A DNA stretch of 64,000 nt, from the NCBI RefSeq assembly GCF_900168065.1, contig NZ_FUZZ01000003.1:496001-560000 (forward strand). The letters run 5' to 3'. Origin of the DNA: Chitinophaga ginsengisegetis (GTDB lineage: Bacteria; Bacteroidota; Bacteroidia; Chitinophagales; Chitinophagaceae). The notes beneath the pieces were generated by a model. The model made no database searches. It was not told the origin of the DNA and was given only the letters and a program-made list of their open reading frames with translations. The translations under genes were made by a program, and so were the position numbers. Shown piece after piece: positions 22,449-43,040 of the stretch. How positions within the stretch are numbered: position 1 is the first letter of the stretch; the number at the start of each line of letters is the position of its first letter.

Positions 22449-23915
22449 TTATTCCGCTACAAGAATGGCTTCAATCTGCCCGTACAATTGCAGGAACATC
22501 TTATACTTTTTACGATACGCTTCAAATTTGGCGGCATCCGGCGTAAATACCGTTTGCGTGGGTTCCGGGGCTCTCTGCGGCCATCCAAGCACTTCAGCGG
22601 CCAACAGGATCGCACCGAGTGCGGAAGCGTCGCTTTCCTGCTGCAGGTGCATTTCCTGGCCAAAGATGTCTGCCAGCAACTGAATCCACCCCGGCGCATT
22701 GGTAAACCCTCCACTCACAGAGATTTTCCGCACCGGCCCGGCCGTTTCCTCCAGGGCCTCTTTGATACTCAGCAATGCAAAACAGATCCCTTCCAGCACG
22801 GCCCGGGTGAAATGCGCCGGCGTATGCTGGGGCTGAATGCCTATAAAGGCGGCAGTGGCATGACTGTTCCACACCGGCGCCCTTTCCCCCAGCAGGTAAG
22901 GCAAACAAAGGAGCTTGCCCGGGTCCGTGACCAATGCTTCTCCCACCAGGTCGTTAAGGCTACTCAGAGGCTGCCGCAGGAAATCCCTCACCAGCCATTG
23001 CAGCACCACGCCTCCATTATTGGAGGCGCCACCGGTAATATAGATATCATCCGTTAAGAGATACGTGAACAACCGGCCACGGGCATCAGTGAGTGGTTGG
23101 GCGCCCGCCATTCTTACCGCGCCGCTGGTGCCAATGGTAAGCGTGGCATGCCCTGCGTCCAGCGCGCCGCTGCCCAGTTGGGCCAGGCAGCCATCGCTGC
23201 CCCCTATCACAAACGGCGTATCGGCCGGGATGCCCAGTGTGGCCGCCATATCAGGGGATAGCCCGCTAACCACATAATTGGCCGGCACGGGCTGAGGCAG
23301 CTGCGCAGCGGTAATACCCGCCACACTTAAAGCCGTTTCGTTCCATTGAAGCGTATGGATATCAAACAGGCCCGTGGCCGAGGCAATAGAGTGATCTGTT
23401 ATCCAGCGTCCGAAGAAATGATGAAAGATGTATTCCTTGATGCCCGGGAATATCGCTGCAGCGGCAAATACAGCCGGTTGCCGCTCCCGCAGCCACATGA
23501 TTTTGCACAGGGGCGACATGGCGTGCACCGGGGTCCCGGTTTGCCGGTAAATTTGCCTGCCCTCCGGGGTATCGCGTAACGCCAGCGCATTGGGTTCACT
23601 CCGGTTATCGGCCCAGATGATCAGCGGCGTAAGCGCCGTCCCATCGGGACCCACAGCCATCATACTGTGCATGGCGCTGCTAAAGGAAATGGCCGCCGGG
23701 GCGCCCCCAGCCTGGGCCACCACCTCCCGGATACCGGCTATCACCGCTTCCAGGATCACCTCCGGCTTTTGCTCGCTGTATCCCGGTTGCGGGTGACTGG
23801 TAGCATATGCCTGCTGAAACACCGCCAGAATTTTTCCGTCCATTCCTTGCACAATCGATTTTGTACTGCTGGTGCCTATATCTACACCAATAATATACGC
23901 TGTATGATCACTCAT
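22449..23915 (-). CDS. FGGY family carbohydrate kinase, gluconokinase type
   Basis: The 488-residue kinase has the FGGY ATPase fold: GVDIGTSSTKSIV near the start, SSAMHSMMAV (gluconokinase-like), GGSDGCLAQLGSG, and ISVSGGFTNAPGWIQLLADIFGQEM near the end. It phosphorylates a sugar or sugar acid with ATP in the cytoplasm; the MHSMM segment and overall pattern favour D-gluconate. It is divergent from a GMC flavoprotein operon, which fits a system that oxidises sugars outside the cytoplasm and then phosphorylates the acid product. Xylulose or another substrate cannot be excluded. Confidence 0.82.
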   Translation of the reverse strand: MSDHTAYIIGVDIGTSSTKSIVQGMDGKILAVFQQAYATSHPQPGYSEQKPEVILEAVIAGIREVVAQAGGAPAAISFSSAMHSMMAVGPDGTALTPLIIWADNRSEPNALALRDTPEGRQIYRQTGTPVHAMSPLCKIMWLRERQPAVFAAAAIFPGIKEYIFHHFFGRWITDHSIASATGLFDIHTLQWNETALSVAGITAAQLPQPVPANYVVSGLSPDMAATLGIPADTPFVIGGSDGCLAQLGSGALDAGHATLTIGTSGAVRMAGAQPLTDARGRLFTYLLTDDIYITGGASNNGGVVLQWLVRDFLRQPLSSLNDLVGEALVTDPGKLLCLPYLLGERAPVWNSHATAAFIGIQPQHTPAHFTRAVLEGICFALLSIKEALEETAGPVRKISVSGGFTNAPGWIQLLADIFGQEMHLQQESDASALGAILLAAEVLGWPQRAPEPTQTVFTPDAAKFEAYRKKYKMFLQLYGQIEAILVAE

Positions 23916-23996
23916 AAAAAAAACCGTTCTTTTTCCGCATTTAATTTATAGATTTAAAACCGGTGTTCTTCTAAAAAGTCTAAAATATCCACGCAA

Positions 23997-25736
23997 ATGG
24001 CTTTCGAAATCAAAAAACAGGGGAAGGTTTATGACGTTTGTATTGTTGGTTCCGGCGCCGGAGGGGGCATGGCTGCAAAAATCCTATCGGATGCCGGCCT
24101 CAAAGTAGCCCTCCTGGAAGCAGGTCCTAAATACGACCCCGCCGACCCCGAGCAGGCAACACAGCTGAAATGGTCATATGAATCGCCCAGAAGAGGCGCC
24201 AGCACCACCCGCCCTTTCGGTGACTTCGACGCATCCTACGGCGGATGGGAAATCAACGGTGAACCTTACACGAAAAAAAACGGAACTGAATTCGACTGGT
24301 TCCGCTCCCGCATGTTAGGGGGCAGAACTAACCACTGGGGCCGCATTTCACTGCGCTTTGGCCCACGCGACTTCAAACACAAAAGTTATGATGGCCTCGG
24401 CGACGACTGGCCCATCACCTACGATGAGGTAGCACCCTTCTACGACCGGGTAGATAAGATGGTCGGCGTATTCGGCACCAAAGAAAACCTGCCCAACGAA
24501 CCGGATGGCTTCTTCCTCCCGCCGCCCAAACCCAGGCTACATGAGCTGATGGTGAAGAAAGCAGGCGATCGTTTAGGCATCCCCGTTATCCCGGCGCGCC
24601 TCTCCATATTAACCCGCTCAGTAAATAAAGACCGCAGCCCATGCTTCTATTGCAGCCAGTGTAACCGCGGCTGTACCGTGTATGGCGACTTCTCCGCCTC
24701 TTCTGTGCTGGTGAAACCAGCCATGAAAAGCGGACATGTGGACCTCTACACCAACGCAATGGTGCGGGAAGTATTAACAGACGGCAACGGCAAAGCCACC
24801 GGCGTAGCTTACGTAGATAAAACAGACCTGCAGGAATATTCCGTGAACGCACGGGTAGTAGTGCTGGCCGCCAGCGCATGCGAATCGGCCCGTTTGCTGC
24901 TGAACTCAAAATCAGCCAAACATCCGAACGGACTCGCCAACTCCAGCGGTGTAGTGGGTAAATACCTGCACGATTCTACCGGCTCCTCCCGCGGAGGTTT
25001 CCTCCCCCAGCTGATGGACCGCAAAAGATATAATGAAGATGGCGTAGGCGGCATGCACATGTATGTTCCCTGGTGGGGCGATAACAAGAAACTGGACTTT
25101 GCACGCGGCTACCACATTGAATTTGGCGGTGGCATGCACATGCCCGGTTATGGTTTCGGCTTTGGTATGGAAAATATGAACGGCCGGGTTCCTGGTCGTG
25201 ATGGCCAAACCAAAGCTGCCGGCGGCTACGGCGCTTCACTGAAAGATGACTACCGCCGCTTTTACGGCTCCCAGATCGGCTTTGCCGGCAGGGGCGAATG
25301 TATTGCGCGGGAAGATAATTACTGTGAAATAGATCCGAACGTAGTAGATAAGTTCGGAATTCCTGTTCTGCGCTTCAACTACACCTGGAGCGATCATGAA
25401 ATCAAACAGGCCAAACACATGCAGGACACGTTTGAACAAATCATTCATGAAATGGGCGGCATTGCCTTTGGCACCAAACCGGGAGCCGATACCAAATACG
25501 GACTGGAAAATCCGGGCCGCATTATTCATGAAGTAGGTACCACCCGCATGGGCGACGATCCTAATAAATCCGTGCTGAATAAATTTAACCAGGCACACGA
25601 AGTAAAAAATCTCTTCGTGGTAGATGGTGGCGCGTTTGTGTCGCAGGCAGATAAAAATCCTACCTGGACCATACTGGCACTGTCTATGCGGGCATCCGAA
25701 TATATCGTGGATCAATTGAAGAAACAGAATCTCTAA
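23997..25736 (+). CDS. GMC family oxidoreductase, catalytic subunit of a membrane sugar/glycoside dehydrogenase
   Basis: The 579-residue flavoprotein has the FAD motif GSGAGGG (18-24), the GGRTNHWG block (109-116), and a cysteine cluster C216-x2-C219-x2-C222-x3-C226 as in the Fe-S-binding FAD-glucose and fructose dehydrogenases. The C-terminal GTTRMGDDP and NPTWTI segments carry the catalytic His/Asn pair region. It lacks its own signal peptide. The next gene, 18 bases downstream, encodes a gluconate-2-dehydrogenase-subunit-3-like protein with an export signal, so hitchhiker Tat export is likely. Known relatives include glucoside 3-dehydrogenases and gluconate 2-dehydrogenases. Confidence 0.88.
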   Translation: MAFEIKKQGKVYDVCIVGSGAGGGMAAKILSDAGLKVALLEAGPKYDPADPEQATQLKWSYESPRRGASTTRPFGDFDASYGGWEINGEPYTKKNGTEFDWFRSRMLGGRTNHWGRISLRFGPRDFKHKSYDGLGDDWPITYDEVAPFYDRVDKMVGVFGTKENLPNEPDGFFLPPPKPRLHELMVKKAGDRLGIPVIPARLSILTRSVNKDRSPCFYCSQCNRGCTVYGDFSASSVLVKPAMKSGHVDLYTNAMVREVLTDGNGKATGVAYVDKTDLQEYSVNARVVVLAASACESARLLLNSKSAKHPNGLANSSGVVGKYLHDSTGSSRGGFLPQLMDRKRYNEDGVGGMHMYVPWWGDNKKLDFARGYHIEFGGGMHMPGYGFGFGMENMNGRVPGRDGQTKAAGGYGASLKDDYRRFYGSQIGFAGRGECIAREDNYCEIDPNVVDKFGIPVLRFNYTWSDHEIKQAKHMQDTFEQIIHEMGGIAFGTKPGADTKYGLENPGRIIHEVGTTRMGDDPNKSVLNKFNQAHEVKNLFVVDGGAFVSQADKNPTWTILALSMRASEYIVDQLKKQNL

Positions 25737-25754
25737 TCTTTTTAAGTTTTTTTC

Positions 25755-26450
25755 ATGGATAGAAGAGAATCACTCAAAGCGCTTGCACTGGGAACGTTAT
25801 CAGTTGGTACCATTTTATCTGCCACTGGTTGTGAAGATAAAAAAACAACGGCCGATAAAAATGATCATCCTAATGTGAAAACAGCCGGCTATGGCCGTAC
25901 TCCGGATGAAGTGTCGCGGGATAAAAAGCTGATGGAGGAAAAGTTTTTCACAGACGCTGAAATGAAAACCATCACCATACTGGCGGATATCATTATCCCG
26001 GCAGATGAACATTCCGGCAGCGCCTCCGATGCAAAGGTGCCGGAGTTTATAGAATTCATTGTAAAAGATATACCGGAACACCAGTTGCCTATGCGGGGCG
26101 GATTACGCTGGCTGGATATGCAATGTGCCAAACGGTATAATAAATCTTTTGCAGAAAGCACTGCAGAACAACGTATCGCAGTGGTAGACCTGGTAGCTTA
26201 TCCGGGAAAAGCATCTCCGGAAAACAGCCAGGGTGTGGCCTTCTTTAACCGGATGCGTAATCTCACTGCCACAGGATTTTTCACCAGTAAAATGGGCATC
26301 AAGGACCTCAACTACATCGGTAATACGCCCAACGAATGGGATGGCGTACCTGCAGATGTATTGAAGCAGTACGGCTATGCCTATGATGAAAAAACATTGG
26401 CTACCTGTTTGAAAATCGAAGACAGGGGCAAGCTGATGACCTGGGAATAA
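25755..26450 (+). CDS. Gluconate 2-dehydrogenase subunit 3 family protein
   Basis: The 231-residue protein begins MDRRESLKALALGTLSVGTILSATGC, combining a twin-arginine-like motif with a lipobox Cys at about 26. The core ITILADIIIPADEHSGSASDAKVPEFIEFIV is diagnostic of the family. Such small subunits escort the GMC flavoprotein across the membrane and hold it there. Its position 18 bases after the flavoprotein gene supports this pairing. A heme cytochrome c partner, normal for such complexes, is not encoded nearby. Confidence 0.9.
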   Translation: MDRRESLKALALGTLSVGTILSATGCEDKKTTADKNDHPNVKTAGYGRTPDEVSRDKKLMEEKFFTDAEMKTITILADIIIPADEHSGSASDAKVPEFIEFIVKDIPEHQLPMRGGLRWLDMQCAKRYNKSFAESTAEQRIAVVDLVAYPGKASPENSQGVAFFNRMRNLTATGFFTSKMGIKDLNYIGNTPNEWDGVPADVLKQYGYAYDEKTLATCLKIEDRGKLMTWE

Positions 26451-26498
26451 CGACTTAACTTGCTATTTCATAATTTAAATCCAGAAAACTTCACATCA

Positions 26499-27953
26499 AT
26501 GATTCCAGAAAAAAAGAATGAGGGAGAAAACGGTGTTTCCCGCAGATCATTCCTGAGAAACGGTGCGCTCGCCGCCGCCGGTTTCATGATAGTTCCACGT
26601 CATGTATTAGGCAGAGGCTATGTAGCGCCAAGCGATCGCCTGCGCGTAGCAGGTATCGGTGTAGGCGGTAAAGGCTTCAGCGATATATCTGAATTTGCTA
26701 AAGGCCCGGCTGATATTACTTTCCTGTGTGATGTGGACAAACGTCGTGCAGCCGAAGCCGTGAAGAAATTCCCTAAGGCGAAGTTCTATACTGATTTCCG
26801 GGAAATGTTTGACAAGGAACACAAAAACTTCGACGCCGTTTCCGTATCCACTCCGGATCACACACACGCCGTAGCAACAATGGGCGCTATGCAGCTGAAG
26901 AAGGATGTATATGTGCAGAAACCATTAACCCACGACATCTACGAAGCACGTATGCTTACGCAGGGCGCCAACAAATACAAGGTAGTAAGCCAGATGGGTA
27001 ACCAGGGCTCTTCCGGTGATGGCGTTCGTCAGCTGATGGAATGGTACAATGCCGGTCTTGTTGGAGATGTACACACCATCTACTGCTGGACAGATCGTCC
27101 GGTATGGCCACAGGGCGTTCCCTGGCCAACCAACCGCGAGGAAGTACCCGCAGAACTGAACTGGGACCTGTGGTTAGGTACCGCTCCTAAAAAAGATTAC
27201 GTAGGCAACCTGGTACCATTCAACTGGCGCGGCTGGTGGGATTACGGTACCGGCGCCATCGGCGATATGGGCTGTCATATTATTGAACCTCCTTTCCGTG
27301 TACTGGGCCTGGGCTACCCTACTTCTGTAGAGTGCAGCGTTGGTAGCGTATACGTAGGAGAATTCACCCGCGGATATTTCCCGGAAAGCTGCCCTCCTTC
27401 TTCCCATGTAATTATGAAATTCCCTGGAAAGAATGGTAAAGAAGTAACCCTTCACTGGATGGACGGTGGTATTCAACCGGAACGTCCGGAAGAACTGGGT
27501 CCTAACGAAACAATGGGTGACGGTGGTAACGGCGCCCTGTTTATCGGTGATAAAGGCAAAATGATGTGCGGTACTTACGGTATGTATCCTAAGTTGCTGC
27601 CTACTTCCCGCACTACGGAAGCGAATGTGCCGCAAACTATTGCACGTGTACCGGAAGGTCACTACGTACAGTGGGTGAACGCGGCTATCGCCGGTTACGG
27701 CAGCAAACAACAGAAAGCGCTCAGCTCTCCGTTCGATATTGCCGGTCCGCTTACTGAAACCATCCTGATGGCTAACCTGGCTATCCGTAGCTTTGATATC
27801 CGTAAGGAGAAAGCAAATGGTAAAGGCTTTGATTATCCGGGCCGTTATATCAAGCTGCTGTGGGATGGTAACAATATGAAGATTACCAACTTCGACGAAG
27901 CCAACCAGTTTGTGAAACGCACTTACCGCGATGGCTGGTCACTGGGTGTATAA
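26499..27953 (+). CDS. Secreted Gfo/Idh/MocA family oxidoreductase
   Basis: The 484-residue protein starts at the ATG at 26499; the frame extends to a TTG at 26460 but the Tat signal fits the ATG. The signal reads SRRSFLRNGALAAAGFMI. The Rossmann NAD(P)-binding region follows (LRVAGIGVGGKGFSD), then the VQKPLTHD motif with the catalytic Lys of EKP-type sites, and the C-terminal GFO domain with a WWDYGTGAIGDMGCHI segment. Exported members keep a tightly bound nucleotide and act on sugars. It is the third gene of the GMC operon (48 bases after subunit 3). Confidence 0.9.
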   Translation: MIPEKKNEGENGVSRRSFLRNGALAAAGFMIVPRHVLGRGYVAPSDRLRVAGIGVGGKGFSDISEFAKGPADITFLCDVDKRRAAEAVKKFPKAKFYTDFREMFDKEHKNFDAVSVSTPDHTHAVATMGAMQLKKDVYVQKPLTHDIYEARMLTQGANKYKVVSQMGNQGSSGDGVRQLMEWYNAGLVGDVHTIYCWTDRPVWPQGVPWPTNREEVPAELNWDLWLGTAPKKDYVGNLVPFNWRGWWDYGTGAIGDMGCHIIEPPFRVLGLGYPTSVECSVGSVYVGEFTRGYFPESCPPSSHVIMKFPGKNGKEVTLHWMDGGIQPERPEELGPNETMGDGGNGALFIGDKGKMMCGTYGMYPKLLPTSRTTEANVPQTIARVPEGHYVQWVNAAIAGYGSKQQKALSSPFDIAGPLTETILMANLAIRSFDIRKEKANGKGFDYPGRYIKLLWDGNNMKITNFDEANQFVKRTYRDGWSLGV

Positions 27954-27970
27954 ATGATTATACCTGTTAT

Positions 27971-28011
27971 AAAAAGAAATGCCGCGACGATCTCGCGGCA
28001 TTTTCTTTTTA
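27971..28011. terminator. Bidirectional terminator between the Gfo/Idh and SusD genes
   Basis: AAAAAGAAATGCCGCGA (27971-27987) pairs with the arm at 27993-28010 with one extra T bulged. The loop is short (CGATC). A/T tracts on both sides fit termination on both strands between convergent genes. Confidence 0.85.
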
Positions 28012-28035
28012 TGAAAAGCTAGTACATGAATACTG

Positions 28036-29790
28036 TTACTTATAATCCTCCTGCTGTTTCAGGTTACTGTTCTTCCTGATTTCATTGGCAGGAATGGGCA
28101 GCAGGTAATTCTTCGCCTTATTAAATTTACGGTCCTGGATACTGTATACATGATATACAAACGGATGCCCGGCAATCATGGACCCTAACACTTCAATACC
28201 TTTGGCATTTTCGTTGAAAGCCGTTTCAGCATCTCTCCACCTGCGGGCATCAAAGAAACGTTGTTCTTCATAAGCCAGTTCGTACCGTCTTTCATATTTC
28301 AACACGGCCCATAAAGCAGCTCCGGATGCAGTAGTAGCAGGCATCCCGGCACGTTCACGCACCCTGTTCAATATAATACGGCCATTTGCCTCATCGCCAT
28401 ACCCGATGGCTGCTTCTGCATAGTTCAGCAAAATTTCCGCATAACGGATGAAGACCCAGGACTGGTCGCCACGGAAGAATTGGGCATCCAGGTTCTTGTC
28501 CATAAACTTACGCAGGTAGTAACCGGAGTAAGTACCATTCCAGTTTTCGATGGTACTATTACGGGTATCAAGTCCCCAAACGCTATCCCTGCCATTGGCA
28601 GCTTCATATTTTCCGGTTTGTATCACCCCCACCGGGTCGGTTTTGGCTGCATCGGAAGGGCGTGGTTTCCATTTAGCGCCATCATACAGGATGGTGGCGT
28701 AAAAGCGGGGATCACGGTTTTCATACGGCGCCTTTGCCTGGGCAACATTACTCCAGGAAAAAGCAGTCCCGTCTTTCATTTGATAGCCGGTCACAAAGTT
28801 TTCGATCGGCACATTTCCGCCCCAGTTATGATACCCGTTAGGACCGTTATACAGGTCGTGCGAAGTACCCAGTAATGCTTTATCATATTGCTTGATAAAG
28901 ATCAGTTCCGGGTTATCTTTATCGAGAAACACACGGGTATAATTTTCTACCGGGTTGGCAGTGGGCTGGTAAAGACTATAAGTGTTAAGATCCATCACCG
29001 CTTTAGCCGCATCCATTGCCAGTTTGTAACGGTCTTTCTGCAGACCGGATTTATACCCCATTAAATCGTTCGGTACTTTCGCATCATTGAACAAGTCGCT
29101 GGCGGCGAAAAGCAGGATCCTGGATTTCAGGGCCATAGCGGCGCCTTTGGTCACTCTTCCTTTGCTCGCCACGGCATCATAGGAAGCCGGGAGTTGTTGG
29201 GTGGCCAGGTCACATTCTGCTGCAATGAACTTAACGCATTCGTCGAAAGTGGCTCTCTTCACACTCAGGATCTCCTGTTCATCTCCCTTAATACTAAAGG
29301 TTTTGGTGATCAACGGAACACCGCCATAGTATTTCACCAACAGGTGATAGTACCAGGCCCGCATAAAATGCACCTCGCCGGTCATGCGTGTACGCACTGC
29401 TTCATCGGTGAAAGGCACTTGCGCCACCTTTTCCAGGAACATATTACAGTTACGGATAGCCTTGTAGTGTAAATCCCACCTGGCAAAATCATTGATGGCG
29501 CCTACATCATCAGCGGAGGCGTTCCCCTGCACTACCCTGGAGGTGTTGTAGTCGTGAATAAACCGGCTTTCATCTGTCATTGAGGAAAGCATTACTTCCA
29601 GGTAGCCGGAGCGCATCTGTACATACAGGTCGTTTACAAACGCCTGTACCAGGCCCACATCTTTCCACACGTCGTTTTCTTCATATTCGGTTAACGGCTT
29701 CTTTTCGAGGAAGTCTTTATTACAACCGGCGGAAACCGCGCATAGTAAAAACGCTCCCGCTATATATCTGATGATTGTTGTTTTCTTCAT
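28036..29790 (-). CDS. SusD/RagB family nutrient-binding outer-membrane lipoprotein
   Basis: The 584-residue lipoprotein (lipobox SAGC, then NKDFLEKKPLTEYEENDVWKD) has the SusD start and four TPR-like regions. The conserved FIRYAEILLNYAEAAIGYGDE and ERRYELAYEEQRFFDARRW blocks are present. It caps the SusC barrel on the cell surface and binds the glycan or glycoside to be imported. It begins 10 bases after the SusC stop. The ligand cannot be read from sequence. Confidence 0.95.
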   Translation of the reverse strand: MKKTTIIRYIAGAFLLCAVSAGCNKDFLEKKPLTEYEENDVWKDVGLVQAFVNDLYVQMRSGYLEVMLSSMTDESRFIHDYNTSRVVQGNASADDVGAINDFARWDLHYKAIRNCNMFLEKVAQVPFTDEAVRTRMTGEVHFMRAWYYHLLVKYYGGVPLITKTFSIKGDEQEILSVKRATFDECVKFIAAECDLATQQLPASYDAVASKGRVTKGAAMALKSRILLFAASDLFNDAKVPNDLMGYKSGLQKDRYKLAMDAAKAVMDLNTYSLYQPTANPVENYTRVFLDKDNPELIFIKQYDKALLGTSHDLYNGPNGYHNWGGNVPIENFVTGYQMKDGTAFSWSNVAQAKAPYENRDPRFYATILYDGAKWKPRPSDAAKTDPVGVIQTGKYEAANGRDSVWGLDTRNSTIENWNGTYSGYYLRKFMDKNLDAQFFRGDQSWVFIRYAEILLNYAEAAIGYGDEANGRIILNRVRERAGMPATTASGAALWAVLKYERRYELAYEEQRFFDARRWRDAETAFNENAKGIEVLGSMIAGHPFVYHVYSIQDRKFNKAKNYLLPIPANEIRKNSNLKQQEDYK

Positions 29791-29800
29791 GGCACATTAA

Positions 29801-32800
29801 TTAAAAGGTTACGTTTAATCCCACATTGTAAATCTTGGTTTGCGGATAGAACTGTCCGCTTCCACTTGGCGCTTCAGGGTCAAAAATCTTCACTTTGTCG
29901 ATGGTGACCAGGTTCTGACCACTTACATATACCCGGAGGTTTTGCAGTCCAATCCGCTTGCAAAGAGTGGTAGGTATATTGTAACCAAGATCCAGGGTTT
30001 TTAAACGGACATAGTTGGTATTCCAATACCAGAAAGTATTCTGACGGTTTACCCAGTACTCACGGTCACGGTCGTACGCTCTTGGCCATGATCCGTTGAT
30101 GTTGTCTTCTGTCCAGCGGTCTTTTACATATGCCATCGGGAAGTTACCGATCAACCCGGATTCTGTACGCAGGTACTGGCTTGCGCCGGTAGCGCCCTGC
30201 CACAGCATGGTGAAGTCGAAGTTTTTGAACTTGGCGGTCATGGTTAACCCGAAGATCCAGGTAGGATTTTCGGTACGGTCCATACGAACGCGGTCGAGAT
30301 CATCAATAGCGCCGTCGCCGTTTTTATCCAGGAAGATAACATCGCCGGCTCTTGCGCCGCCTACGTGTGCGCTCTTGTCTACTTCATCCTGTGTTTTGTA
30401 AATGCCAATGGCCTGGTAATACAGCGGCGCACCTATCTGTTTGCCGGTAGCCTGCTGATATGCCGGAAGATTTGGCGTTTCGTCGAAGAACAATACTTTG
30501 TTTTCTGCGTGAGTAACCGTTCCTATAATTTCATAATGGAATTTTTTGATGTCGTTTTTGTGGCTTAATACCAGTTCAAACCCTTTGTTTTCCACTTTGG
30601 CGATATTTTCCTGTGGCAGGGTCATACCGGTATAACCGGGCATCGACTGGCTGCGGCTGGCGAGGATGTTGGATCTTTTTGTCAGGAAGTAATCTCCTTC
30701 AAAGGCCAGCTTATCTCCCAGTATTTTTGCTTCGATACCGAAATCATAGTTATTGGCTACTTCCCAGGTGATGGACTCATTGGGTGACCGCAGCTGGTAA
30801 AGCCCTTTATTCAAGTCGCCGCCCAGCATTACACCACCGGCGCTGAAGCCATAGGTGCTCAGGTATTGGAACGGATCTATCTGGTCGTTACCCATCTGGC
30901 CCCAGGATGCGCGCAGTTTAAAGTAGTCGAGCGTACGAATGCTTTTTTTCCAGAAGGCTTCGTTAGATAATACCCAACCTGCTGAAGCGCCGGGGAACAG
31001 TCCCATACGGCGGCCTTCCGGGAAATTCTGGGAGCCGTCGTAACGCATGTTATAATCAAACAGGTAGGTTTCTTTGTAATTATAGGAAATACGTCCGAAG
31101 TAATTACGGCGGGCATATTCAAAACCACTGCCGGCATTGTTCTTTTCTTTATCACCGCCTAAATTCAACTGGTCCAGCTTATCGCTGATAAAGTACCTGC
31201 GGTTAGCAGAGAAGCCGTCATTTTTCAACGTAGCCTGTTCAAAGGCGATGAAGCTGCTGAGGTTATGCTTTCCGAAAGAACGTACATAGTTCACTTTAAA
31301 GTTGACGGTGATTTGCCGTGTTGTACTGAACTGTTCCGTTAACTCCGGTGCGCTTACTCCCCTGGAACCCGCATTCAGCTTATGCGTAGGATCATTGGCA
31401 TCTGCCAGCGTGTATAACGTCCAGGGTTTGATGTAGGATTTGTAGAAGTCGAAATTCTGATCGTATGCAAAACTACCATCTACAAACAATCCTTCTACCC
31501 CCGGAATATTCACAACGGCAGACATGTTGGTGTTGATCACATAGTTCTTATCGTTTGTGTAACCGATTGCATTTGTTCCCGTAACAACGGGGTTATCGCC
31601 GTATTCAATATCAGGCCCGGGTAGTCCGTTGGGCCAGATAGCGTTTTCTGTAGGGCGGCCGCGCATGAGTGATCTGAAAATAGAACCGGCACTGCGTGGA
31701 GGAAAGTTCCTGTTTTCGAGACGCCCTGCCAGGTCGAAACGCAGGCGGATGTAATCACTTACTACTGCATCCAGGTTGGCTCTTACGTTCTGTTGTTTGT
31801 AATTGGTAGCACTGCTTTTATAAATACCATCCTGGAATAACGACCCCAGGGAAACGTAGTACGACATTTTTTCTGTACCTCCGCTGAGCGACAGGTCGTG
31901 CCTGTTTTGCAAAGAGTATTTTTTAATCGCGGCATCGTACCAGTTGGTGTTAGGGTACAGCCATGGATCGGATCCATCTCCAAATTTCTTGATCTGTTCA
32001 TCTGTATACTTCGGAGCGTCTCCTCCATACTTTAAAATTTCGTTCACCACTTTAGCATACGTAGGCGCATCAGCCATTTCCGGCAGCCTGGTGGGTGTTA
32101 CAAAAGATTGGTTAAAGCCGTAACTCAGTGTAGGTTTACCTCCCTTACCACGTTTGGTGGTAACGAGGATAACGCCATTGGCTGCGCGGGAACCATAAAT
32201 GGCCGCAGCAGCGTCTTTCAGAATGGAAACACTTTCGATGTCGTTGGGGTTCATGCGCTCAAAGCCATCGCGCGGGAAACCATCAATTACAACGAGCGGG
32301 TTACTGTTGCCTAAAGTACTGCGGCCACGGATAAAAATACGGGAGCCATCGTAACCGGGCTCTCCACTGTTGTTAACGGCGATAATGCCGGGAATACGTC
32401 CAACAAGCGAATTAGAGATATTAACGTTTGGTGACTGCTGTAACTCGGCGCCTTTTACAGAAGATACTGCGCCGGTTTTAGTAACTTTTTTCTGTGTACC
32501 GTAGCCAACTACTACGTACTCGTCCAGTGTTTTCTGGTTTTCTTTTAATACAACATTCAGGGCCGTCTTTCCGTCTACTTTCAGCTCCTGTGCATCAAAG
32601 CCGATGTATTGGAATACGAGTACCGCATCTTTTTTTACATCGGTTAGTACATAGTTACCTTTTTCATCGGAAGTGGCTCCTTTCTTAGAGTCTTTCACCA
32701 ACACCGTAACCCCGGGCAGCGGGTTACCGTTGATGTCTTTTACCTTTCCCTTAACTGTGAGATTTCCTTGTTGCCATACGCTGGGTAATGGCGCACGCGC

Positions 32801-32869
32801 GGTAATGGCGCTGCTGGTGGTTGCAAAAAGGCATAGCAATAGCGTAGCCTTTGCATAACGTGGGTTCAT
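29801..32869 (-). CDS. SusC/RagA family TonB-dependent outer-membrane transporter
   Basis: The 1022-residue protein has a signal peptide, then a carboxypeptidase-D-like domain (VKGKVKDINGNPLPGVTVLV), the YVVVGYGTQKK SusC signature, a plug with IFIRGRSTLGNSNPLVVIDG and ILKDAAAAIYGSRAANGVILVTTKRG, and a long beta-barrel ending in an aromatic-rich strand (YNVGLNVTF). I use the ATG at 32869; the frame extends to 32962 but that extension lacks signal-peptide character. It imports large solutes with the SusD partner. No ECF sigma/anti-sigma or HTCS regulator lies next to it. Confidence 0.95.
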   Translation of the reverse strand: MNPRYAKATLLLCLFATTSSAITARAPLPSVWQQGNLTVKGKVKDINGNPLPGVTVLVKDSKKGATSDEKGNYVLTDVKKDAVLVFQYIGFDAQELKVDGKTALNVVLKENQKTLDEYVVVGYGTQKKVTKTGAVSSVKGAELQQSPNVNISNSLVGRIPGIIAVNNSGEPGYDGSRIFIRGRSTLGNSNPLVVIDGFPRDGFERMNPNDIESVSILKDAAAAIYGSRAANGVILVTTKRGKGGKPTLSYGFNQSFVTPTRLPEMADAPTYAKVVNEILKYGGDAPKYTDEQIKKFGDGSDPWLYPNTNWYDAAIKKYSLQNRHDLSLSGGTEKMSYYVSLGSLFQDGIYKSSATNYKQQNVRANLDAVVSDYIRLRFDLAGRLENRNFPPRSAGSIFRSLMRGRPTENAIWPNGLPGPDIEYGDNPVVTGTNAIGYTNDKNYVINTNMSAVVNIPGVEGLFVDGSFAYDQNFDFYKSYIKPWTLYTLADANDPTHKLNAGSRGVSAPELTEQFSTTRQITVNFKVNYVRSFGKHNLSSFIAFEQATLKNDGFSANRRYFISDKLDQLNLGGDKEKNNAGSGFEYARRNYFGRISYNYKETYLFDYNMRYDGSQNFPEGRRMGLFPGASAGWVLSNEAFWKKSIRTLDYFKLRASWGQMGNDQIDPFQYLSTYGFSAGGVMLGGDLNKGLYQLRSPNESITWEVANNYDFGIEAKILGDKLAFEGDYFLTKRSNILASRSQSMPGYTGMTLPQENIAKVENKGFELVLSHKNDIKKFHYEIIGTVTHAENKVLFFDETPNLPAYQQATGKQIGAPLYYQAIGIYKTQDEVDKSAHVGGARAGDVIFLDKNGDGAIDDLDRVRMDRTENPTWIFGLTMTAKFKNFDFTMLWQGATGASQYLRTESGLIGNFPMAYVKDRWTEDNINGSWPRAYDRDREYWVNRQNTFWYWNTNYVRLKTLDLGYNIPTTLCKRIGLQNLRVYVSGQNLVTIDKVKIFDPEAPSGSGQFYPQTKIYNVGLNVTF

Positions 32870-33073
32870 GCTACAAGTGATTTTGGAAGATGATGAAATT
32901 TGTCTGTTAACTAGCTTTTCATAACGACGAAACGGGTATTCATGTCTATGTAAGATAAACATGAAAGGTTTAATTATTTTCTAAAAATAAATGTCGCAAA
33001 TACAATTATTTTAAAAATTCTTCCTTAAAAAAAGAGGAAATGTAATTTCTACTAGTATAAGTATCTGAGAGAC

Positions 33074-33304: not shown

Positions 33305-33365
33305 GCATAATTTTATACCCTTAAGCGTTATTTGAACGTTATAGTAACATCAACCATATGGTTTT

Positions 33366-34022
33366 ATGAAAAAACGTTACTTTCTCATAGCTATCCTTTC
33401 AATGGTAACATTGCTGTTTTCCTGCAGTAAGGAAATGAGCAATGAAGGAGAAGGTACACAACCCTCCAACAGTAATTGCGAATATGCTCCTTACACGAAC
33501 GGCTCCTCCTTTTCCTACATTAACGTAAATAGCGCTAAAGACACGATTACCTATACCCTCACGGTTTCAGAAGATACAACCATCAACGGCATTGTGTATA
33601 AAAAAGTGGGGAACGACAGCGTATTTACCTGCTCCAACTGTAAAGACGGCATTTATACACAAGTGGCCAGCATCCTTACTTTTCAGGGTTACAGCGCAGA
33701 CAGCCTGGAGCTTACCTACCTGAAAGATAATGTACCCGCCGGCACCAGCTGGAAAGACACTATTACTGTGAACAACGGTGGCGTAACCACCTCCGGTATC
33801 CTGGAATTCACCATCACAGAAAAGGATATCACCAAAACGGTGAATGGCAAAAATTACGCCTCCGTGATCGCCGTGAAAATGGACGCCTATGCCATTGTTT
33901 TTGGCAACCCGGTTTCTGTGGGCACTATCTCTACCAGCTATTACGGCAAAGGAGTAGGACTGATAGAAGCTGATCAGCTGCATGATACTACCACCATCGT
34001 TTCTTATACCATAAAGCCTTAA
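33366..34022 (+). CDS. Putative lipoprotein of unknown function
   Basis: The 218-residue protein has a lipoprotein signal with LLFSC (Cys at about 20), then a Ser/Asn/Glu-rich tether and a predicted beta-sandwich rich in Thr (DTITYTLTVSEDTTING). A pair CSNC in the middle could form a disulfide. I recognise no family; similar short surface lipoproteins are common in Chitinophagaceae. Its last 4 bases overlap the end of the convergent PBP4-type gene. Confidence 0.7.
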   Translation: MKKRYFLIAILSMVTLLFSCSKEMSNEGEGTQPSNSNCEYAPYTNGSSFSYINVNSAKDTITYTLTVSEDTTINGIVYKKVGNDSVFTCSNCKDGIYTQVASILTFQGYSADSLELTYLKDNVPAGTSWKDTITVNNGGVTTSGILEFTITEKDITKTVNGKNYASVIAVKMDAYAIVFGNPVSVGTISTSYYGKGVGLIEADQLHDTTTIVSYTIKP

Positions 34023-35311
34023 TAGGCCGCACTCACCATCGAGAGCAACCGCTCTACCGCCCTTCTTACACTGGTAGCGGATTCATGATGATTATTCACC
34101 AGCACACTGAATACCAGCGTTCTCTTTTTCTTTGTTTCCAGGTAGCCGCTTAATGCTACCACACCGTTCAGCGTACCCGTTTTGGCGTGTACTTTCTGTT
34201 GCTGATAATAGTTCTTCATTGTTCCCCTGCCGCCAGTGGGGAAAATTTGCCAGAGGCGTTCCTGCGGAAACTGTTCCCGCATCAGGGTGAGCACGGTTAC
34301 AAAGTCGCGGGGCGTAAACAGGTTATACCGGGAAAGACCGGAACCATCCTCCCATTGCGGCGGATGCGGCAGGCTTTTGAGGTCGCCGGCAAGCAGGTAC
34401 TTAATGGTCCGGGCGCTGCTGATGGTATCCCATAAAGCGGAAGAGGCCATCATCAGTGTTTGTTCTGCAAAGAAATTATCGCTGCGCTCCATCATCGGGA
34501 TAAACAACGAATCTGCCGGGATGCTTTTCAGTACCGTGTAGTTTCCCGCCGGCGGTATAACGGCCAGCCCTATACGTTTATGCAACGTGTCTTCCAACCT
34601 TTGCCGCAGCTCCTGTACCGATCCGGTGATGAAAGGCACTTCGGCTTTTTCCAATGCTTTATCTTTCGGATTGTATTTCAGGTAGAATAAATTATTCCGT
34701 TCATCCCTCGACGTGATAGTTTCGCTCAGGGTATCATCTTCCATAATATCCAGGTCATAAAAAGCAGGTGTGATGCTATTGTTATTTCCCTGGTGAAGGA
34801 TACGTACCACATTGCCGTACATAGGCCATTCGTTTAGTTCCGGCTGATAATCGTCCGCATAATCACCCCAACTCCAGCCCGGGCCGAAACGTTGATTGGC
34901 ATTTACGCCCTGCACCAGGTATATCTTTTTAGCGGTTTGCTGCAACAGCTGCAGCAGGGGTTGGTAGTTATAGTCCGGGTGAAGAAAAGACGGGTCACCC
35001 ATTCCTTTTACAAAGAGAGCCGTATCGTTTTCATAATACCGCGCCGCCGGAAGAGAATCCCCCAGCAGTTTCAATCCTGCGTACAACGAGAAGATCTTGG
35101 TATTGGATGCGGGCGTGAAAAACTTATTGTCCTGGTACTGGTACCAATATTTCCCGGTGGCCGGTTCATAAATGCAGATGCCCACATGTGCCTGCTCCAT
35201 TGGTATTTTATGAAGCAGCTCTGCTTCTGCCCATTTCTTTATCGCCGCCACCTGGGCGGTTACACTTCCTCCGGTTAATATGGATATAATTACTACCAGT
35301 AATTTTTTCAT
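34019..35311 (-). CDS. dacB: D-alanyl-D-alanine carboxypeptidase/endopeptidase, PBP4 type (S13)
   Basis: The 430-residue exported protein (signal peptide 1-20) has the S13 motifs: SNTK (69-72) as SxxK, the DGSGLSRYN block as SxN, and HAKTGTLNG as KTG. The large insert between SxxK and SxN is present, as usual for PBP4. It cleaves D-Ala-D-Ala bonds and peptide crosslinks in periplasmic peptidoglycan. It is a single gene set within the carbohydrate region, with no evident link to its neighbours. Confidence 0.93.
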   Translation of the reverse strand: MKKLLVVIISILTGGSVTAQVAAIKKWAEAELLHKIPMEQAHVGICIYEPATGKYWYQYQDNKFFTPASNTKIFSLYAGLKLLGDSLPAARYYENDTALFVKGMGDPSFLHPDYNYQPLLQLLQQTAKKIYLVQGVNANQRFGPGWSWGDYADDYQPELNEWPMYGNVVRILHQGNNNSITPAFYDLDIMEDDTLSETITSRDERNNLFYLKYNPKDKALEKAEVPFITGSVQELRQRLEDTLHKRIGLAVIPPAGNYTVLKSIPADSLFIPMMERSDNFFAEQTLMMASSALWDTISSARTIKYLLAGDLKSLPHPPQWEDGSGLSRYNLFTPRDFVTVLTLMREQFPQERLWQIFPTGGRGTMKNYYQQQKVHAKTGTLNGVVALSGYLETKKKRTLVFSVLVNNHHESATSVRRAVERLLSMVSAAY

Positions 35312-35342
35312 AGATGGAAATTACGAATTGTGCATTACGAAA

Positions 35343-35390
35343 CAGGGATTTATGAGAAGACCATTTTATTGATCTTCCCATAAATCCCTG
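35343..35390. terminator. Long hairpin between the Gfo/Idh and dacB genes
   Basis: A 12-bp perfect stem (35343-35354 with 35379-35390) continues after one mismatch into a 5-bp stem (35356-35360 with 35373-35377). A T-run lies on the plus side (35396-35402) and TTTCG on the minus side. It probably ends the minus-strand operon at 35418-37758. Confidence 0.65.
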
Positions 35391-35417
35391 ATCCGTTTTT
35401 TTGGCCTGGTAATTTTA

Positions 35418-36749
35418 TCAGGTAAAATATTTGGTAATGCCTGGTTTTGCGTAAGCATAATTACCGGAAGCATCCGGCATAACCGGCGGCTGTGCATCAA
35501 ATGAATATGATTTAGGATGCAGATCCAGACCGGAGTTCAGCGCTACATTCCAATCGATCACCTGGCCGGAATAAGTAGCCAAACGGCCTATGATCGCAGA
35601 AAGGGTAGCCTGCGCGCCTCTTTCCGCATCTGCAAATTTGTATTCGCCTTTGGCAATAGCGGCAAACAGTTCATCGTGTTCCGTTTGGTAAGGATTGTTT
35701 TCTTTCTTCTTATCAAACTGGTATAACACTTTGCCTTTATGATCCACTATCTGTGCTTTATCACAGTAGATACGGCCCTTTGTTCCTACAATTTCCTCGT
35801 CTACTTTACTGGGAGCGTCTTTCCAGTGGCGGCACTGGCTGTTCATCACTACACCGTTGGCATAGCGGTACTCCACAAAGTGGTGGTCAAATATTTCACC
35901 GAACTCTTTGCCGGTACGCACAGCACGGCCGCCCATACCACCTGCGGTAACAGGGGTAGCGCCCATGAACCAGTTGCCCACGTCAATATTGTGGATATGC
36001 TGTTCTACGATATGATCGCCGCAGAGCCAGTTGAAATAATACCAGTTGCGCATCTGGTATTCCATTTCAGTATACTCGGGCTTGCGGGGTTTTACCCACA
36101 GCGCGCCCTGGTTCCACCACACCTGTGCCGACAGCATATCACCGATCATACCATCCTGGAAGCGTTTGTACAGTTCGCGGTAAGAATTCTGGTAGCGGCG
36201 TTGTAAACCTACTACTACGTTCAGCTTCTTGGTTTTAGCCACAGCAGCAGCTTCCAGTACTTTTTTAATACCGGCGGGATCTGTTGCTACCGGTTTTTCC
36301 ATGAAGACATGTTTCCCTTGTTTAACCGCTTCTTCAAAATGAATGGGTCTGAAACCCGGAGGGGTGGCAAGGATCACTACATCCGCCAGTGCAATGGCTT
36401 GTTTGTAAGCGTCGAAGCCAATAAATTTATTGCTTTCAGGTACGTTTACCCGGTTGGCTTTATCGCCCAGTGCTTCTTTAATATCATTAAAGCTGTTGCT
36501 CAGCCTGTCGGGGAAGGCATCCGCCATCGCTACCAGCTCCACATTTTCTTTTGTGCTGAGCGCCTGTGTGGCAGCACCTGTACCTCGGCCACCGCAGCCA
36601 ATCAGGGCTATTTTGATAACACCGGTAGATCCTGAGAAATAATTTGCTTTGGATAAAATAGGCATAGCCAACAAACCGCCCGCAAGCAAGGTAGTTTGCT
36701 TTACGAATTCGCGGCGGCCTTCACCGTGGAATTTCTTTTCGTTGTCCAT
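35418..36749 (-). CDS. Secreted Gfo/Idh/MocA family oxidoreductase
   Basis: The 443-residue protein has a Tat-type signal (GRREFVKQTTLLAGGLLAMPIL), a Rossmann region (IKIALIGCGGRGTGAA), an MEKPVATD motif holding the catalytic Lys, and the GFO C-terminal domain with an HNIDVGNWFMGATP block. It is a different subfamily from the protein at 26499 (shorter, with different motifs). It follows a SUMF1-type gene by 40 bases and is probably cotranscribed. Substrates are likely sugars or glycosides held outside the cytoplasm. Confidence 0.9.
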   Translation of the reverse strand: MDNEKKFHGEGRREFVKQTTLLAGGLLAMPILSKANYFSGSTGVIKIALIGCGGRGTGAATQALSTKENVELVAMADAFPDRLSNSFNDIKEALGDKANRVNVPESNKFIGFDAYKQAIALADVVILATPPGFRPIHFEEAVKQGKHVFMEKPVATDPAGIKKVLEAAAVAKTKKLNVVVGLQRRYQNSYRELYKRFQDGMIGDMLSAQVWWNQGALWVKPRKPEYTEMEYQMRNWYYFNWLCGDHIVEQHIHNIDVGNWFMGATPVTAGGMGGRAVRTGKEFGEIFDHHFVEYRYANGVVMNSQCRHWKDAPSKVDEEIVGTKGRIYCDKAQIVDHKGKVLYQFDKKKENNPYQTEHDELFAAIAKGEYKFADAERGAQATLSAIIGRLATYSGQVIDWNVALNSGLDLHPKSYSFDAQPPVMPDASGNYAYAKPGITKYFT

Positions 36750-36789
36750 AAATGAATAAGATTTTTAGATTTTTGGATGTTGAATCTTT

Positions 36790-37758
36790 CTAGCGTGCTC
36801 CTTTATATTTCGCGATCATCTCTTCAAAAAATGTTGTGGCTTCTGCTGCTGTTGGTTGTTTCACTGGTCTTACTATCCGGAAGCCAACAAAGGGGGCGTC
36901 TGCATTCCACCAGGAGCTTTTTGGGATCTGTGGATCCCGGCGGTTCCAGATGGGGTCCGACTTCAGGCGGGCGGCGCTGCGGAGCAGCGGGGCTTCATCC
37001 TGGAAGCTGCCGCCTTTCAGCAGCCGCGGGGTTTTAGCGGTAGGCTGTGTCCAGGGATCAGTAGCAGCTGCATTGGCTACGCCGTTTTCATCATATTGGT
37101 CCAGTGTCCATTCCTCCACATTGCCCAGCATATCGTATAGTCCCCAGGCATTGGGTTTCAGCTGTCCTACCTTATGGTATTTATTATCGCTGTTGCCCTG
37201 GAACCAGGCGTACTCTTTCAGCTCACCGGCATCGGCGCCAAAAGGATACGCTGTAGTGGAACCTGCCCTGCAGGCATATTCCCATTCTGCCGCTGTTGGC
37301 AGGCGATAAAAAACACCGGTTTTTATGTACAGCCACTGGCAATACATCAGGGCTGCATACTGGCTCATACTGTTGGCGGGAAATCCACCGGATTTGCCCA
37401 TTCCCAGGGTAAGGTCAATATATGGCGGACTCGGACGGGTCATTCCATCCGGTGTGGGGGTTTTATCCTTTTCCGCATCGGCATATATATCGTATTCGTC
37501 AAAAGTAACTTCTGTGGCGCCCATCCAGAAATCCGAAATTGCTACCTTCTTTGCCGGGCCTTCATCTTTATTCCTTCCTTTTTCACTGTCGGGGCTTCCC
37601 AGTTGAAAGCTGCCTCCTTTTACTGGTACCATTTTAAAACTGACATCGGTTCCGGGGATTTGCTGGCTATAAGCTTCGAATGCCTGTTTTGATTGTGCTA
37701 CAACAACAACCTGGCTGAACAATCCGCCCAGCGCTAAGGTCACATACTGTTTTATCAT
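36790..37758 (-). CDS. Secreted SUMF1/formylglycine-generating-enzyme-like protein
   Basis: The 322-residue protein has a signal peptide (about 1-21), then the SUMF1 (FGE-sulfatase) fold: VPVKGGSFQLGSPDSEKGRNKDEGP, FWMGATEVTFDEYD, YRLPTAAEWEYACRAG and GLYDMLGNVEEW. The paired active-site cysteines of true FGE are not obvious, so it is more likely a structural or carbohydrate-binding homologue (as are GldJ/GldK) than a sulfatase activator. No sulfatase is in the window. It is the first gene of an operon with the Gfo/Idh gene. Confidence 0.88.
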   Translation of the reverse strand: MIKQYVTLALGGLFSQVVVVAQSKQAFEAYSQQIPGTDVSFKMVPVKGGSFQLGSPDSEKGRNKDEGPAKKVAISDFWMGATEVTFDEYDIYADAEKDKTPTPDGMTRPSPPYIDLTLGMGKSGGFPANSMSQYAALMYCQWLYIKTGVFYRLPTAAEWEYACRAGSTTAYPFGADAGELKEYAWFQGNSDNKYHKVGQLKPNAWGLYDMLGNVEEWTLDQYDENGVANAAATDPWTQPTAKTPRLLKGGSFQDEAPLLRSAARLKSDPIWNRRDPQIPKSSWWNADAPFVGFRIVRPVKQPTAAEATTFFEEMIAKYKGAR

Positions 37759-37936
37759 CTAACGTGTTTGAAAATATATAAGTGGGTGAATCTAAAAAAA
37801 ACTAATCTGGAAAGCAATATTTTTTTATGAATGCGAAAATGGGCTGATGAATTGAAAATTTTTCATCAATATTAGTATTTCCTTAGAAAAGCGATTAAAT
37901 TTAGCTCCCTGTCAATTATACAATCAATCAAACGTT

Positions 37937-38869
37937 ATGGAAAGAAGAAAATTCCTGCAAAACGGCACCCTGGCCGGTATTTCAGCACTGGCACTGGGAG
38001 GCATCAGCAACGCTGCGCAAGCGGCCAGCGCCAATAACGCCAGCGTGGCCGGAAAGCCGTTTAACATGAACTATGGCCCTCATGATGGCATGTTTAAAAA
38101 CAGTGCCAATGGCGGCAACTTCCTGGACCAGATAAAATATATGTACGACCAGGGATTCCGGTCTATCGAAGACAATGGCATGCTGGGGCGCTCTCCTGAG
38201 GAACAATCCAAAATAGGCGAACTCCTGAATAAACTGGGCATGACCATGGGCGTGTTTGTAGTAGATACCGGCAACAACTGGAAACCCTCCCTGGCCACAG
38301 GCAAACAGGAATTTAAAGAGGCCTTTATTAAAACCTGCAAAGCCAGCCTGGAAACAGCCAAACGTTGTAACGCCAAATGGGCCACCGTTGTACCCGGCTA
38401 CTTTGAACGGACGCTCCCGATCGGCGTTCAAACCGCACACGTAATCGATGCACTGCGCAGCGGCGCGGAAATCTTTGAACCGCATGGCCTCATCATGGTG
38501 CTGGAACCCCTGAGCGATAACCCCGACCTGTTTCTCCGTACCGCCGAACAAAGCTTTGAAATATGCAAAGCCGTGAAAAGTCCTTCCTGCAAAATTTTAT
38601 ACGACATCTACCATATGCAGCGTAATACCGGTAACCTCATTCCTGTAATGGACTGGTGCTGGGATGAAATTGCCTATATCCAGATCGGCGACAACCCCGG
38701 TCGTAAGGAACCTGGCACCGGCGAAATCAATTATAAAAACATCTTTAAACATCTCCACAACAAAGGATATAAAGGTGTACTGGGCATGGAACACGGGATC
38801 GCCGGAAAAGGAAAAGAAGGCGAAGACGCACTGATAAAGGCATACCGCGAAGCAGACAGTTTTATATAA
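37937..38869 (+). CDS. Secreted TIM-barrel protein (xylose isomerase-like/hydroxypyruvate isomerase family)
   Basis: The 310-residue protein has an MERRKFLQNGTLAGISALALGG Tat-type signal, then an AP-endonuclease-2-type TIM barrel. Metal-binding residues are visible in VLEPLSDNP (Glu), ILYDIYHMQ (Asp and His), YIQIGDNPG and the final GMEHG (Glu). Cytoplasmic homologues isomerise hydroxypyruvate. Exported forms beside Gfo/Idh and GMC enzymes are linked to processing of oxidised sugars. It is divergent from the SUMF1/Gfo/Idh operon, 178 bases away. Confidence 0.85.
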   Translation: MERRKFLQNGTLAGISALALGGISNAAQAASANNASVAGKPFNMNYGPHDGMFKNSANGGNFLDQIKYMYDQGFRSIEDNGMLGRSPEEQSKIGELLNKLGMTMGVFVVDTGNNWKPSLATGKQEFKEAFIKTCKASLETAKRCNAKWATVVPGYFERTLPIGVQTAHVIDALRSGAEIFEPHGLIMVLEPLSDNPDLFLRTAEQSFEICKAVKSPSCKILYDIYHMQRNTGNLIPVMDWCWDEIAYIQIGDNPGRKEPGTGEINYKNIFKHLHNKGYKGVLGMEHGIAGKGKEGEDALIKAYREADSFI

Positions 38870-39326: not shown

Positions 39327-39360
39327 CCCTTACCTTTACTGCCTGTTAAAAAGCCAATTC

Positions 39361-42980: not shown

Positions 42981-43013
42981 TGTTTTAATTTTTGGGTTGA
43001 AGGGGAACATCAG

Positions 43014-43021
43014 CAAAGGTA
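43014..43021 (-). promoter_or_regulatory. -7 box TACCTTTG of the NYN/macro operon
   Basis: On the minus strand this is an exact TAnnTTTG match, 34 bases upstream of the ATG at 42980. It also supports that start over the longer frame to 43076. Confidence 0.55.
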
Positions 43022-43040
43022 GCCAATTGATGAAAACTAA

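Follow-up and report, generated by a model that had tools for sequence, protein, structure and literature searches.

Can a gene neighbourhood that encodes several putative sugar-oxidizing enzymes, and no enzyme for cleaving the oxidized product, belong to a glycoside-degrading pathway? The question is raised by a 64,000-nucleotide stretch of the 7.93-Mb genome of Chitinophaga ginsengisegetis (contig C6:496001-560000, hereafter the window), whose interval 22449-38869 had been proposed, in a sequence-only reading, as one locus for redox-based cleavage of glycosides outside the cytoplasm, with SusCD supplying the substrate. Our analysis favors a different unit, with a probability of about 0.58: the operon at 23997-27953, encoding a GMC flavoprotein, its escort subunit and the Gfo/Idh protein Gfo1, would provide the oxidation half of a 3-keto-glycoside pathway that is split in two and takes place partly in the periplasm, with the other half encoded in trans.

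The interval holds, in order, genes for an FGGY kinase (- strand); the GMC flavoprotein, the PF13618 escort and Gfo1 (+); SusD and SusC (-); an open reading frame (ORF) of 218 amino acids (+); a PBP4-like peptidase (-); a second Gfo/Idh protein, Gfo2, with a SUMF1-like protein (-); and a TIM-barrel protein (+). Domain scans confirmed the gene types claimed previously: FGGY (PF00370/PF02782), GMC (PF05199/PF00732), escort (PF13618), both Gfo/Idh proteins (PF01408), SusC/SusD, the FGE-sulfatase domain (PF03781) and the xylose-isomerase-like TIM barrel (PF01261). By eye, four proteins have twin-arginine N-termini: the escort, Gfo1, Gfo2 and the TIM protein. The local absence of classical glycosidase and DUF1080 genes also held, as none of the eleven interval proteins scanned, the TIM protein included, matched a glycoside hydrolase or DUF1080. 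However, DUF1080 genes occur elsewhere in the same genome (18 PF06439 matches, 17 above cut-off, some being two domains of one protein), so that local absence does not equal genome-wide absence. The combination that marks a polysaccharide utilization locus, SusCD with linked carbohydrate-cleaving enzymes, was found in its first part only: SusCD is there, with no glycosidase or DUF1080 protein among the interval proteins.

The GMC, escort and Gfo1 genes

The features of the operon and its upstream region are as follows (Tat, twin-arginine translocation).

23945..23958, + strand: promoter-like element TTTATAGATTTAAA, 39-52 bases before the GMC start
23987..23993, + strand: ATCCACG leader just before the GMC start codon, also found at the equivalent place before the probable partner operon on contig C9
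23997..25736, + strand: GMC flavoprotein, probable catalytic subunit of a dehydrogenase of the direct-electron-transfer type (from domains, residues and PDB matches)
25755..26450, + strand: escort subunit of the gluconate 2-dehydrogenase subunit 3 family (PF13618), with a Tat signal, likely a lipoprotein (lipobox judged by eye)
26460..27953, + strand: Gfo1, Tat-exported Gfo/Idh protein, relative of the BT_2158 glycoside 3-dehydrogenase family; the listed start is TTG and the true start may be slightly downstream

Two sets of loci were compared: a family sample of 40 loci from 35 genera, and the best 80 of 175 loci carrying organism names (named loci), of which 43 belong to the Chitinophaga group (one labelled as a Flavihumibacter metagenome-assembled genome) and 37 to other genera, about ten of the latter being truncated by contig ends. 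Conservation of the gene set in relatives, a check that the sequence-only reading had suggested, was borne out for GMC and escort and failed for the SusCD and Gfo2 genes, which lie outside the conserved unit: the escort gene directly follows the GMC gene in 40/40 family loci and likewise sits next to it in 80/80 named loci. The GMC gene itself was found in 177 of 294 family genomes (E 1e-120); its product is 97% identical to the Chitinophaga polysaccharea counterpart and shares 34-37% identity with the other four GMC proteins encoded in the C. ginsengisegetis genome. On a Hymenobacter plasmid (L204), a 71% identical GMC protein and an escort are encoded amid SusCD, GH92 and LacI genes, with no DUF1080 gene in the stretch shown.

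Residue conservation points to a dehydrogenase complex like BcGDH, a glucose dehydrogenase (PDB 6a2u/8grj) that is also the nearest solved GMC protein by sequence. A twin arginine lies within the first 40 residues of all 81 escorts and within the first 25 residues of just one of 81 GMC orthologs, and 76 of the 81 escorts have a cysteine within residues 15-60. C216, C219, C222, C226, H511 and N554 of GMC are identical in 81/81 orthologs. Three of them, C216, C222 and C226, align with Cys212, Cys218 and Cys222 of BcGDH, which are given as 3Fe-4S ligands, Cys213 being the disulfide partner between subunits (PMC6719666). The make-up of a BcGDH-type complex was found in two respects, namely a GMC protein without its own Tat signal beside a Tat-bearing escort, and the three 3Fe-4S cysteine ligands. 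The predicted GMC model was weak (predicted local distance difference test, pLDDT, 68); its best structural matches, fructose dehydrogenase and BcGDH, add little beyond sequence. The escort model (pLDDT 74) gave no fold match to the BcGDH gamma subunit at E 0.001 or better, and there was no sequence match either, which leaves membership of the Pfam family and the position of its gene next to GMC as the basis for calling it an escort. No multihaem cytochrome c subunit was found beside GMC among the window proteins scanned; a small cytochrome c is encoded in the C9 operon.

Gfo1 shows a long collinear match to PDB 8tdf/8tdh (354/344 bits). K154 and H273, which we take to be the conserved Lys and His of the Gfo/Idh active site, are conserved in 79/79 sequences, and all 79 have QKP where 8tdf has EKP. 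Because of this difference, and of a score under the cut-off of NF058561 (see below), we treat Gfo1 as a relative, not a member, of the BT_2158 family. Its ortholog (57-91% identity) is the next gene after the escort in 11 of the 40 family loci, in two of them (L050, L051) with an opposite-strand gene between; clustering had given 12, from which L057 (27% identical) was left out. Among the 37 non-Chitinophaga named loci, Gfo1 directly follows the escort in 22 and is doubled in 13. These tandem pairs (L170, L172-L175, L177, L182, L188, L193, L195, L197, L200 and L201) occur in Cyclobacteriaceae and other Bacteroidota, the first copy being 60-73% and the second 56-60% identical to the window Gfo1. 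The intervening opposite-strand gene of some Chitinophaga (L050 6651-8291, L051, L102, L105, L107, L108) encodes 545-558 amino acids and looks, by eye, like a peptide-transporter-like membrane protein.

The Chitinophaga genome G006 offers a natural variant of this arrangement (L227, G006:C11:688000-702000). There, the FGGY gene and the GMC promoter region, with element and leader, are followed directly by Gfo1 (open frame of 486 amino acids); no GMC or escort gene was found in the 14 kb around Gfo1, and no GMC match genome-wide at E 1e-120. This arrangement suggests a natural loss of GMC and escort, and that Gfo1 is part of the GMC transcription unit.

A probable partner operon on contig C9 and the proposed pathway

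The genes lacking from the window lie together at about 3.152-3.158 Mb of contig C9, where Pfam and NCBIfam scans identified one operon with major facilitator superfamily (MFS), Gfo/Idh, hydratase, cytochrome c, DUF1080 and ThuA genes. Its TIM protein matches PDB 8ro4, deposited as a 2-hydroxy-3-keto-glucal hydratase, end to end (618 bits). A literature search for the hydratase returned no paper, and a search with the genus name returned none. A glycoside pathway proposed for Agrobacterium ends with such reactions: 2-hydroxy-3-keto-glucal is hydrated, and a Gfo enzyme reduces 3-keto-glucose (PMC10628242, a source that itself calls the evidence for the hydratase preliminary). DUF1080 proteins have been linked to 3-keto-glycoside cleavage (PMC9007349).

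Both halves are physically joined in some relatives. In 4 of the 40 family loci (L056, L057, L064, L070), GMC, escort, Gfo/Idh, hydratase (TIM) and DUF1080 genes stand in a row, with Gfo1 in three and a recognized cytochrome c in three. A Pseudoalteromonas megaplasmid carries, also in a row, genes for Gfo/Idh (56%), hydratase (69% to the C9 protein), MFS (47%), DUF1080 (40%), GMC and escort; this GMC is 47% identical to that of the window and 32% to the second GMC type discussed below. As it comes from a gammaproteobacterium, this is an independent case in another phylum.

The two operons of C. ginsengisegetis may also share an upstream element. TTTATAGATTTAAA and ATCCACG are largely conserved upstream of GMC within Chitinophaga, and TTTATAAATTTAAA and ATCCACG stand at matching places upstream of the C9 operon. 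The pattern TTTATARATTTAAA occurs twice in the whole genome, before GMC and before the C9 hydratase/DUF1080 operon, while a reversed control pattern also occurs twice. Within the genus, it precedes the C9-type operon exactly in G177 and G229 and with one mismatch in G106 and G270, and it was not found before that operon in G006, which is without this GMC. In 15 loci outside the genus there was no exact copy, and one copy with one mismatch did not precede a hydratase operon. Because the pattern was chosen post hoc, upstream regions of the same genome were ranked by similarity to that of GMC (303 regions, taken from the window and from own-genome loci that surround paralogs of GMC, Gfo/Idh and DUF1080, and so not genome-wide); with the comparison anchored at the start codon, the C9 operon came second of 302. 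A Gfo1 paralog (C5:246442; L032 1489-2847), with TTCCACG just before its start, also has one of the upstream regions most similar to that of GMC. Altogether, the upstream data are suggestive of co-regulation of both operons, and no more.

Association tests were in line with a link between them. DUF1080 genes were found in 7 of the 40 GMC loci (20 kb each), with 1.58 expected from the DUF1080 density of each genome (simulated P 0.0009), although, given the shared ancestry of the genomes, P values should not be read literally here. Across the 294 genomes, GMC and hydratase were both present in 169 and both absent in 98, with GMC only in 8 and hydratase only in 19 (27 discordant). With one genome per genus (n=80), the corresponding numbers were 57, 19, 1 and 3 (phi 0.87), GMC and Gfo1 gave a phi of 0.84, and the control Gfo2 gave 0.43 with GMC and 0.34 with hydratase. 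These 80 genomes remained from 100 after 20 were dropped by hand, partly for low completeness and with the GMC and hydratase lists already known (G012, G043, G046, G048, G049, G054, G059, G074, G076, G078, G079, G081, G082, G088, G089, G090, G092, G094, G097 and G099). Distances were counted on the matches listed, for 118, 98 and 106 genomes; among matches listed for both genes, 18 of 118 genomes have GMC and hydratase no more than 10 kb apart.

In the pathway that we propose, the GMC subunit would fold with FAD and a 3Fe-4S cluster and be exported by way of the Tat pore, using the signal peptide of its lipid-anchored partner, the escort. Once outside, it would oxidize a hydroxyl group of a sugar, with C3 of either a glycoside or released glucose as the most likely position, and its Fe-S cluster would pass the electrons to the small cytochrome c. 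Gfo1, also exported by Tat, would perform or relay the same 3-oxidation with bound NAD. A DUF1080 protein would then cleave the keto-glycoside, 2-hydroxy-3-keto-glucal would be hydrated, and a second Gfo/Idh protein, without an evident signal peptide, would reduce 3-keto-glucose to glucose. The C9 operon would supply the DUF1080 protein, the hydratase, the reductase, the cytochrome c and an MFS carrier.

Gut Bacteroides possess a self-recycling 3-keto chemistry. It is tempting, if doubtful, to speculate that the GMC complex makes a 3-keto sugar, with electrons passing to cytochrome c, and so recharges an exported, NAD-locked Gfo1 that swaps the keto group onto incoming glycosides. If true, this relay would be an aerobic primer for the self-recycling chemistry, set up as a two-operon regulon.

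Contrary evidence and alternative explanations

Several observations weigh against the split pathway: (i) Gfo1 scores 480.6 bits against NF058561 and does not reach its cut-off of 750, (ii) the 14-mer pattern was picked with both sites already seen, and when upstream regions are ranked by their single best block, the C9 operon comes only about 13th of 302, (iii) 33 of the 40 GMC loci have no DUF1080 gene in the 20-kb stretch, (iv) the co-occurrence values are inflated by common ancestry and lifestyle, (v) Gfo1 and a hydratase operon are retained in G006 in the absence of this GMC and its escort, and such retention of Gfo1 disfavors an obligatory GMC-Gfo1 partnership, and (vi) single deletions of BT2157 (DUF1080) or BT2158 in Bacteroides caused no growth defect on raffinose-family sugars, as reported in PMC11501099. 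Furthermore, (vii) a second GMC type (the paralog at C9:1.089 Mb) was found in 60 of 80 genera, and in 36 of 44 one-per-genus genomes (those among the matches listed, with one best-listed copy each) no more than 11 kb separates it from the hydratase, whereas for the window type a distance of up to 10 kb was seen in only five of the one-per-genus genomes listed (G008, G009, G080, G083 and G095), which makes the second type the usual hydratase neighbor. The second type, and not that of the window, may be the main 3-dehydrogenase; alternatively, the task may be shared by both types, or the window type may act at a different step, for example in oxidizing released glucose. The divergent kinase (viii) hints at aldonate chemistry.

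22449..23915, - strand: FGGY carbohydrate kinase, gluconokinase-like, divergent from the GMC gene (Pfam/NCBIfam, PDB)

This kinase is central to the alternative that survives best, unlikely as we consider it, in which GMC and escort form a periplasmic glucose or aldonate dehydrogenase whose acid product is imported and phosphorylated by the FGGY enzyme. The nearest solved structure to the kinase is the gluconate kinase 3gbt (301 bits), just as the nearest one to GMC is a glucose dehydrogenase, and the kinase gene accompanies GMC in 43/43 Chitinophaga-group loci. Nevertheless, the protein scores 419 bits against the gluconokinase model TIGR01314, under the cut-off of 648.55, and the association thins out beyond the genus: of the 40 family loci, 8 have the gene upstream of GMC on the opposite strand (4 of 36 outside Chitinophaga, including one where an ORF intervenes), and at 40% identity or more it was seen in one of the 37 named non-Chitinophaga loci and not in the other 36, some of which are truncated by contig ends. 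No gluconate transporter or 6-phosphogluconate gene was found among the scanned window proteins, and the linkage of GMC to hydratase and DUF1080 genes in relatives would stay unexplained.

It is quite unlikely, in turn, that GMC, Gfo1 and the hydratase operon co-occur merely as markers of sugar-eating Bacteroidota, with GMC acting on an unrelated polyol or alcohol. The co-occurrence was not corrected for phylogeny, and the many GMC loci without DUF1080 fit this explanation; the much lower phi of the control Gfo2 and the physical joining of the genes, both in Bacteroidota and in a gammaproteobacterium, argue against it. A single co-working glycoside oxidation locus across the whole interval, with import by SusCD, is very improbable and already disfavored by the comparative data: the gene types are present and several bear twin-arginine signals, but 18 of 43 Chitinophaga-group loci showed SusC/SusD of the window type and 0 of 37 others did, Gfo2 was found in 26 of 80 genera, the TIM protein of the window is not the hydratase, and MutL and MsrB keep the same synteny within the genus, so that adjacency there reflects stable gene order.

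Neighboring genes and comparison with known systems

The sequence-only reading had the theme and the key genes right, but the unit takes up only part of the interval and, at the same time, extends beyond the window. Glycoside cleavage by a redox route outside the cytoplasm finds support for no more than GMC, escort and Gfo1, and from data outside the interval: the C9 operon in trans, the joined loci, the co-occurrence and the possible shared promoter element; the other genes that were named mostly look like mere neighbors. They are listed here together with two that had been omitted.

28036..32962, - strand: SusD and SusC pair, clade-restricted, outside the conserved unit (domain scans, locus comparison)
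33366-34022, + strand: ORF of 218 amino acids without a Pfam match (omitted previously)
34019-35311, - strand: PBP4-like peptidase S13 (omitted previously)
35418-36749, - strand: Gfo2, Tat-exported Gfo/Idh protein, separate block, after the SUMF1-like gene
36790-37758, - strand: SUMF1-like protein (PF03781), separate block
37937..38869, + strand: Tat-exported TIM barrel, xylose-isomerase-like and hydroxypyruvate-isomerase-like (PF01261), separate block

All 43 Chitinophaga-group loci carry FGGY, GMC, escort and Gfo1. In the 25 where SusCD of this type was not seen, S13 or Gfo2 follows in 19 and the locus ends too early for a call in 6; in C. arvensicola (L129), for instance, Gfo1 leads straight to the 218-amino-acid ORF, S13, Gfo2, SUMF1-like and TIM genes. 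Since SusCD-less loci run from Gfo1 into the right-hand genes, the SusCD pair has the look of an insertion restricted to a clade, and the genes to its right that of a conserved block of their own. No window-type SusC, SusD, Gfo2 or SUMF1-like gene was seen in the 37 loci of other genera, some of them truncated by contig ends. SusCD as the general supplier of substrate was consequently rejected, and the proposed partnership of Gfo2, SUMF1-like and TIM proteins found no support, Gfo2 being far less tied to the hydratase than GMC is. The window TIM protein was rejected as the pathway hydratase (best overlap E 0.02). Formylglycine-generating enzymes have a C-terminal catalytic cysteine pair; the SUMF1-like protein, whose only cysteines are 140 and 163, was rejected as one.

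Elsewhere in the same genome, a long protein with two DUF1080 domains (L112 10420-13776) is encoded next to SusCD and a gene resembling Gfo1, which makes for a more classical 3-keto-glycoside locus than that of the window. Beyond the interval, window positions 39304-41334 encode one 676-amino-acid protein with E1, transketolase pyrimidine-binding and C-terminal domains (a fused 2-oxoacid dehydrogenase E1), overlapped by a small holin superfamily IV gene, and positions 42228-43076 encode a protein with NYN and OST-HTH/LOTUS domains, also found in locus L052.

The split pathway would link a widespread, highly conserved GMC-escort(-Gfo/Idh) operon of Bacteroidota to non-hydrolytic glycoside breakdown, and it names an operon acting in trans as its partner. 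With DUF1080 locally absent, reading such loci by neighborhood alone can mislead.

Four known systems resemble parts of this arrangement. In BcGDH (PDB 6a2u/8grj; PMC6719666), a GMC alpha subunit is likewise joined by a Tat hitchhiker and the three Fe-S cysteines are kept. However, the disulfide Cys213 is replaced by Phe217 in the window GMC, the window is without an adjoining multihaem subunit, and its escort is unmatched to BcGDH by sequence or fold. The BT_2158 family (NF058561; PDB 8tdf/8tdh) shares with Gfo1 the Gfo/Idh type, collinearity and the K154/H273 pair, whereas Gfo1 lies below the curated cut-off, has QKP and not EKP, and has a flavoprotein complex as operon partner. The GlycDH-OGE-hydratase-Gfo pathway of Agrobacterium (PMC10628242) comes close in its order of reactions, in which a flavoenzyme with a Tat partner oxidizes C3 and elimination, hydration and reduction follow, and the C9 operon holds a relative of its hydratase; in Chitinophaga, however, the cleavage enzyme is expected to be a DUF1080 protein and not OGE, and the genes are spread over two loci. 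Finally, the LacABC lactose 3-dehydrogenase of Caulobacter and Pedobacter is likewise exported and made up of several subunits, and has been proposed to work on glycosides together with DUF1080 (PMC9007349), whereas the window operon has the additional Gfo1 and is without DUF1080 and cytochrome genes.

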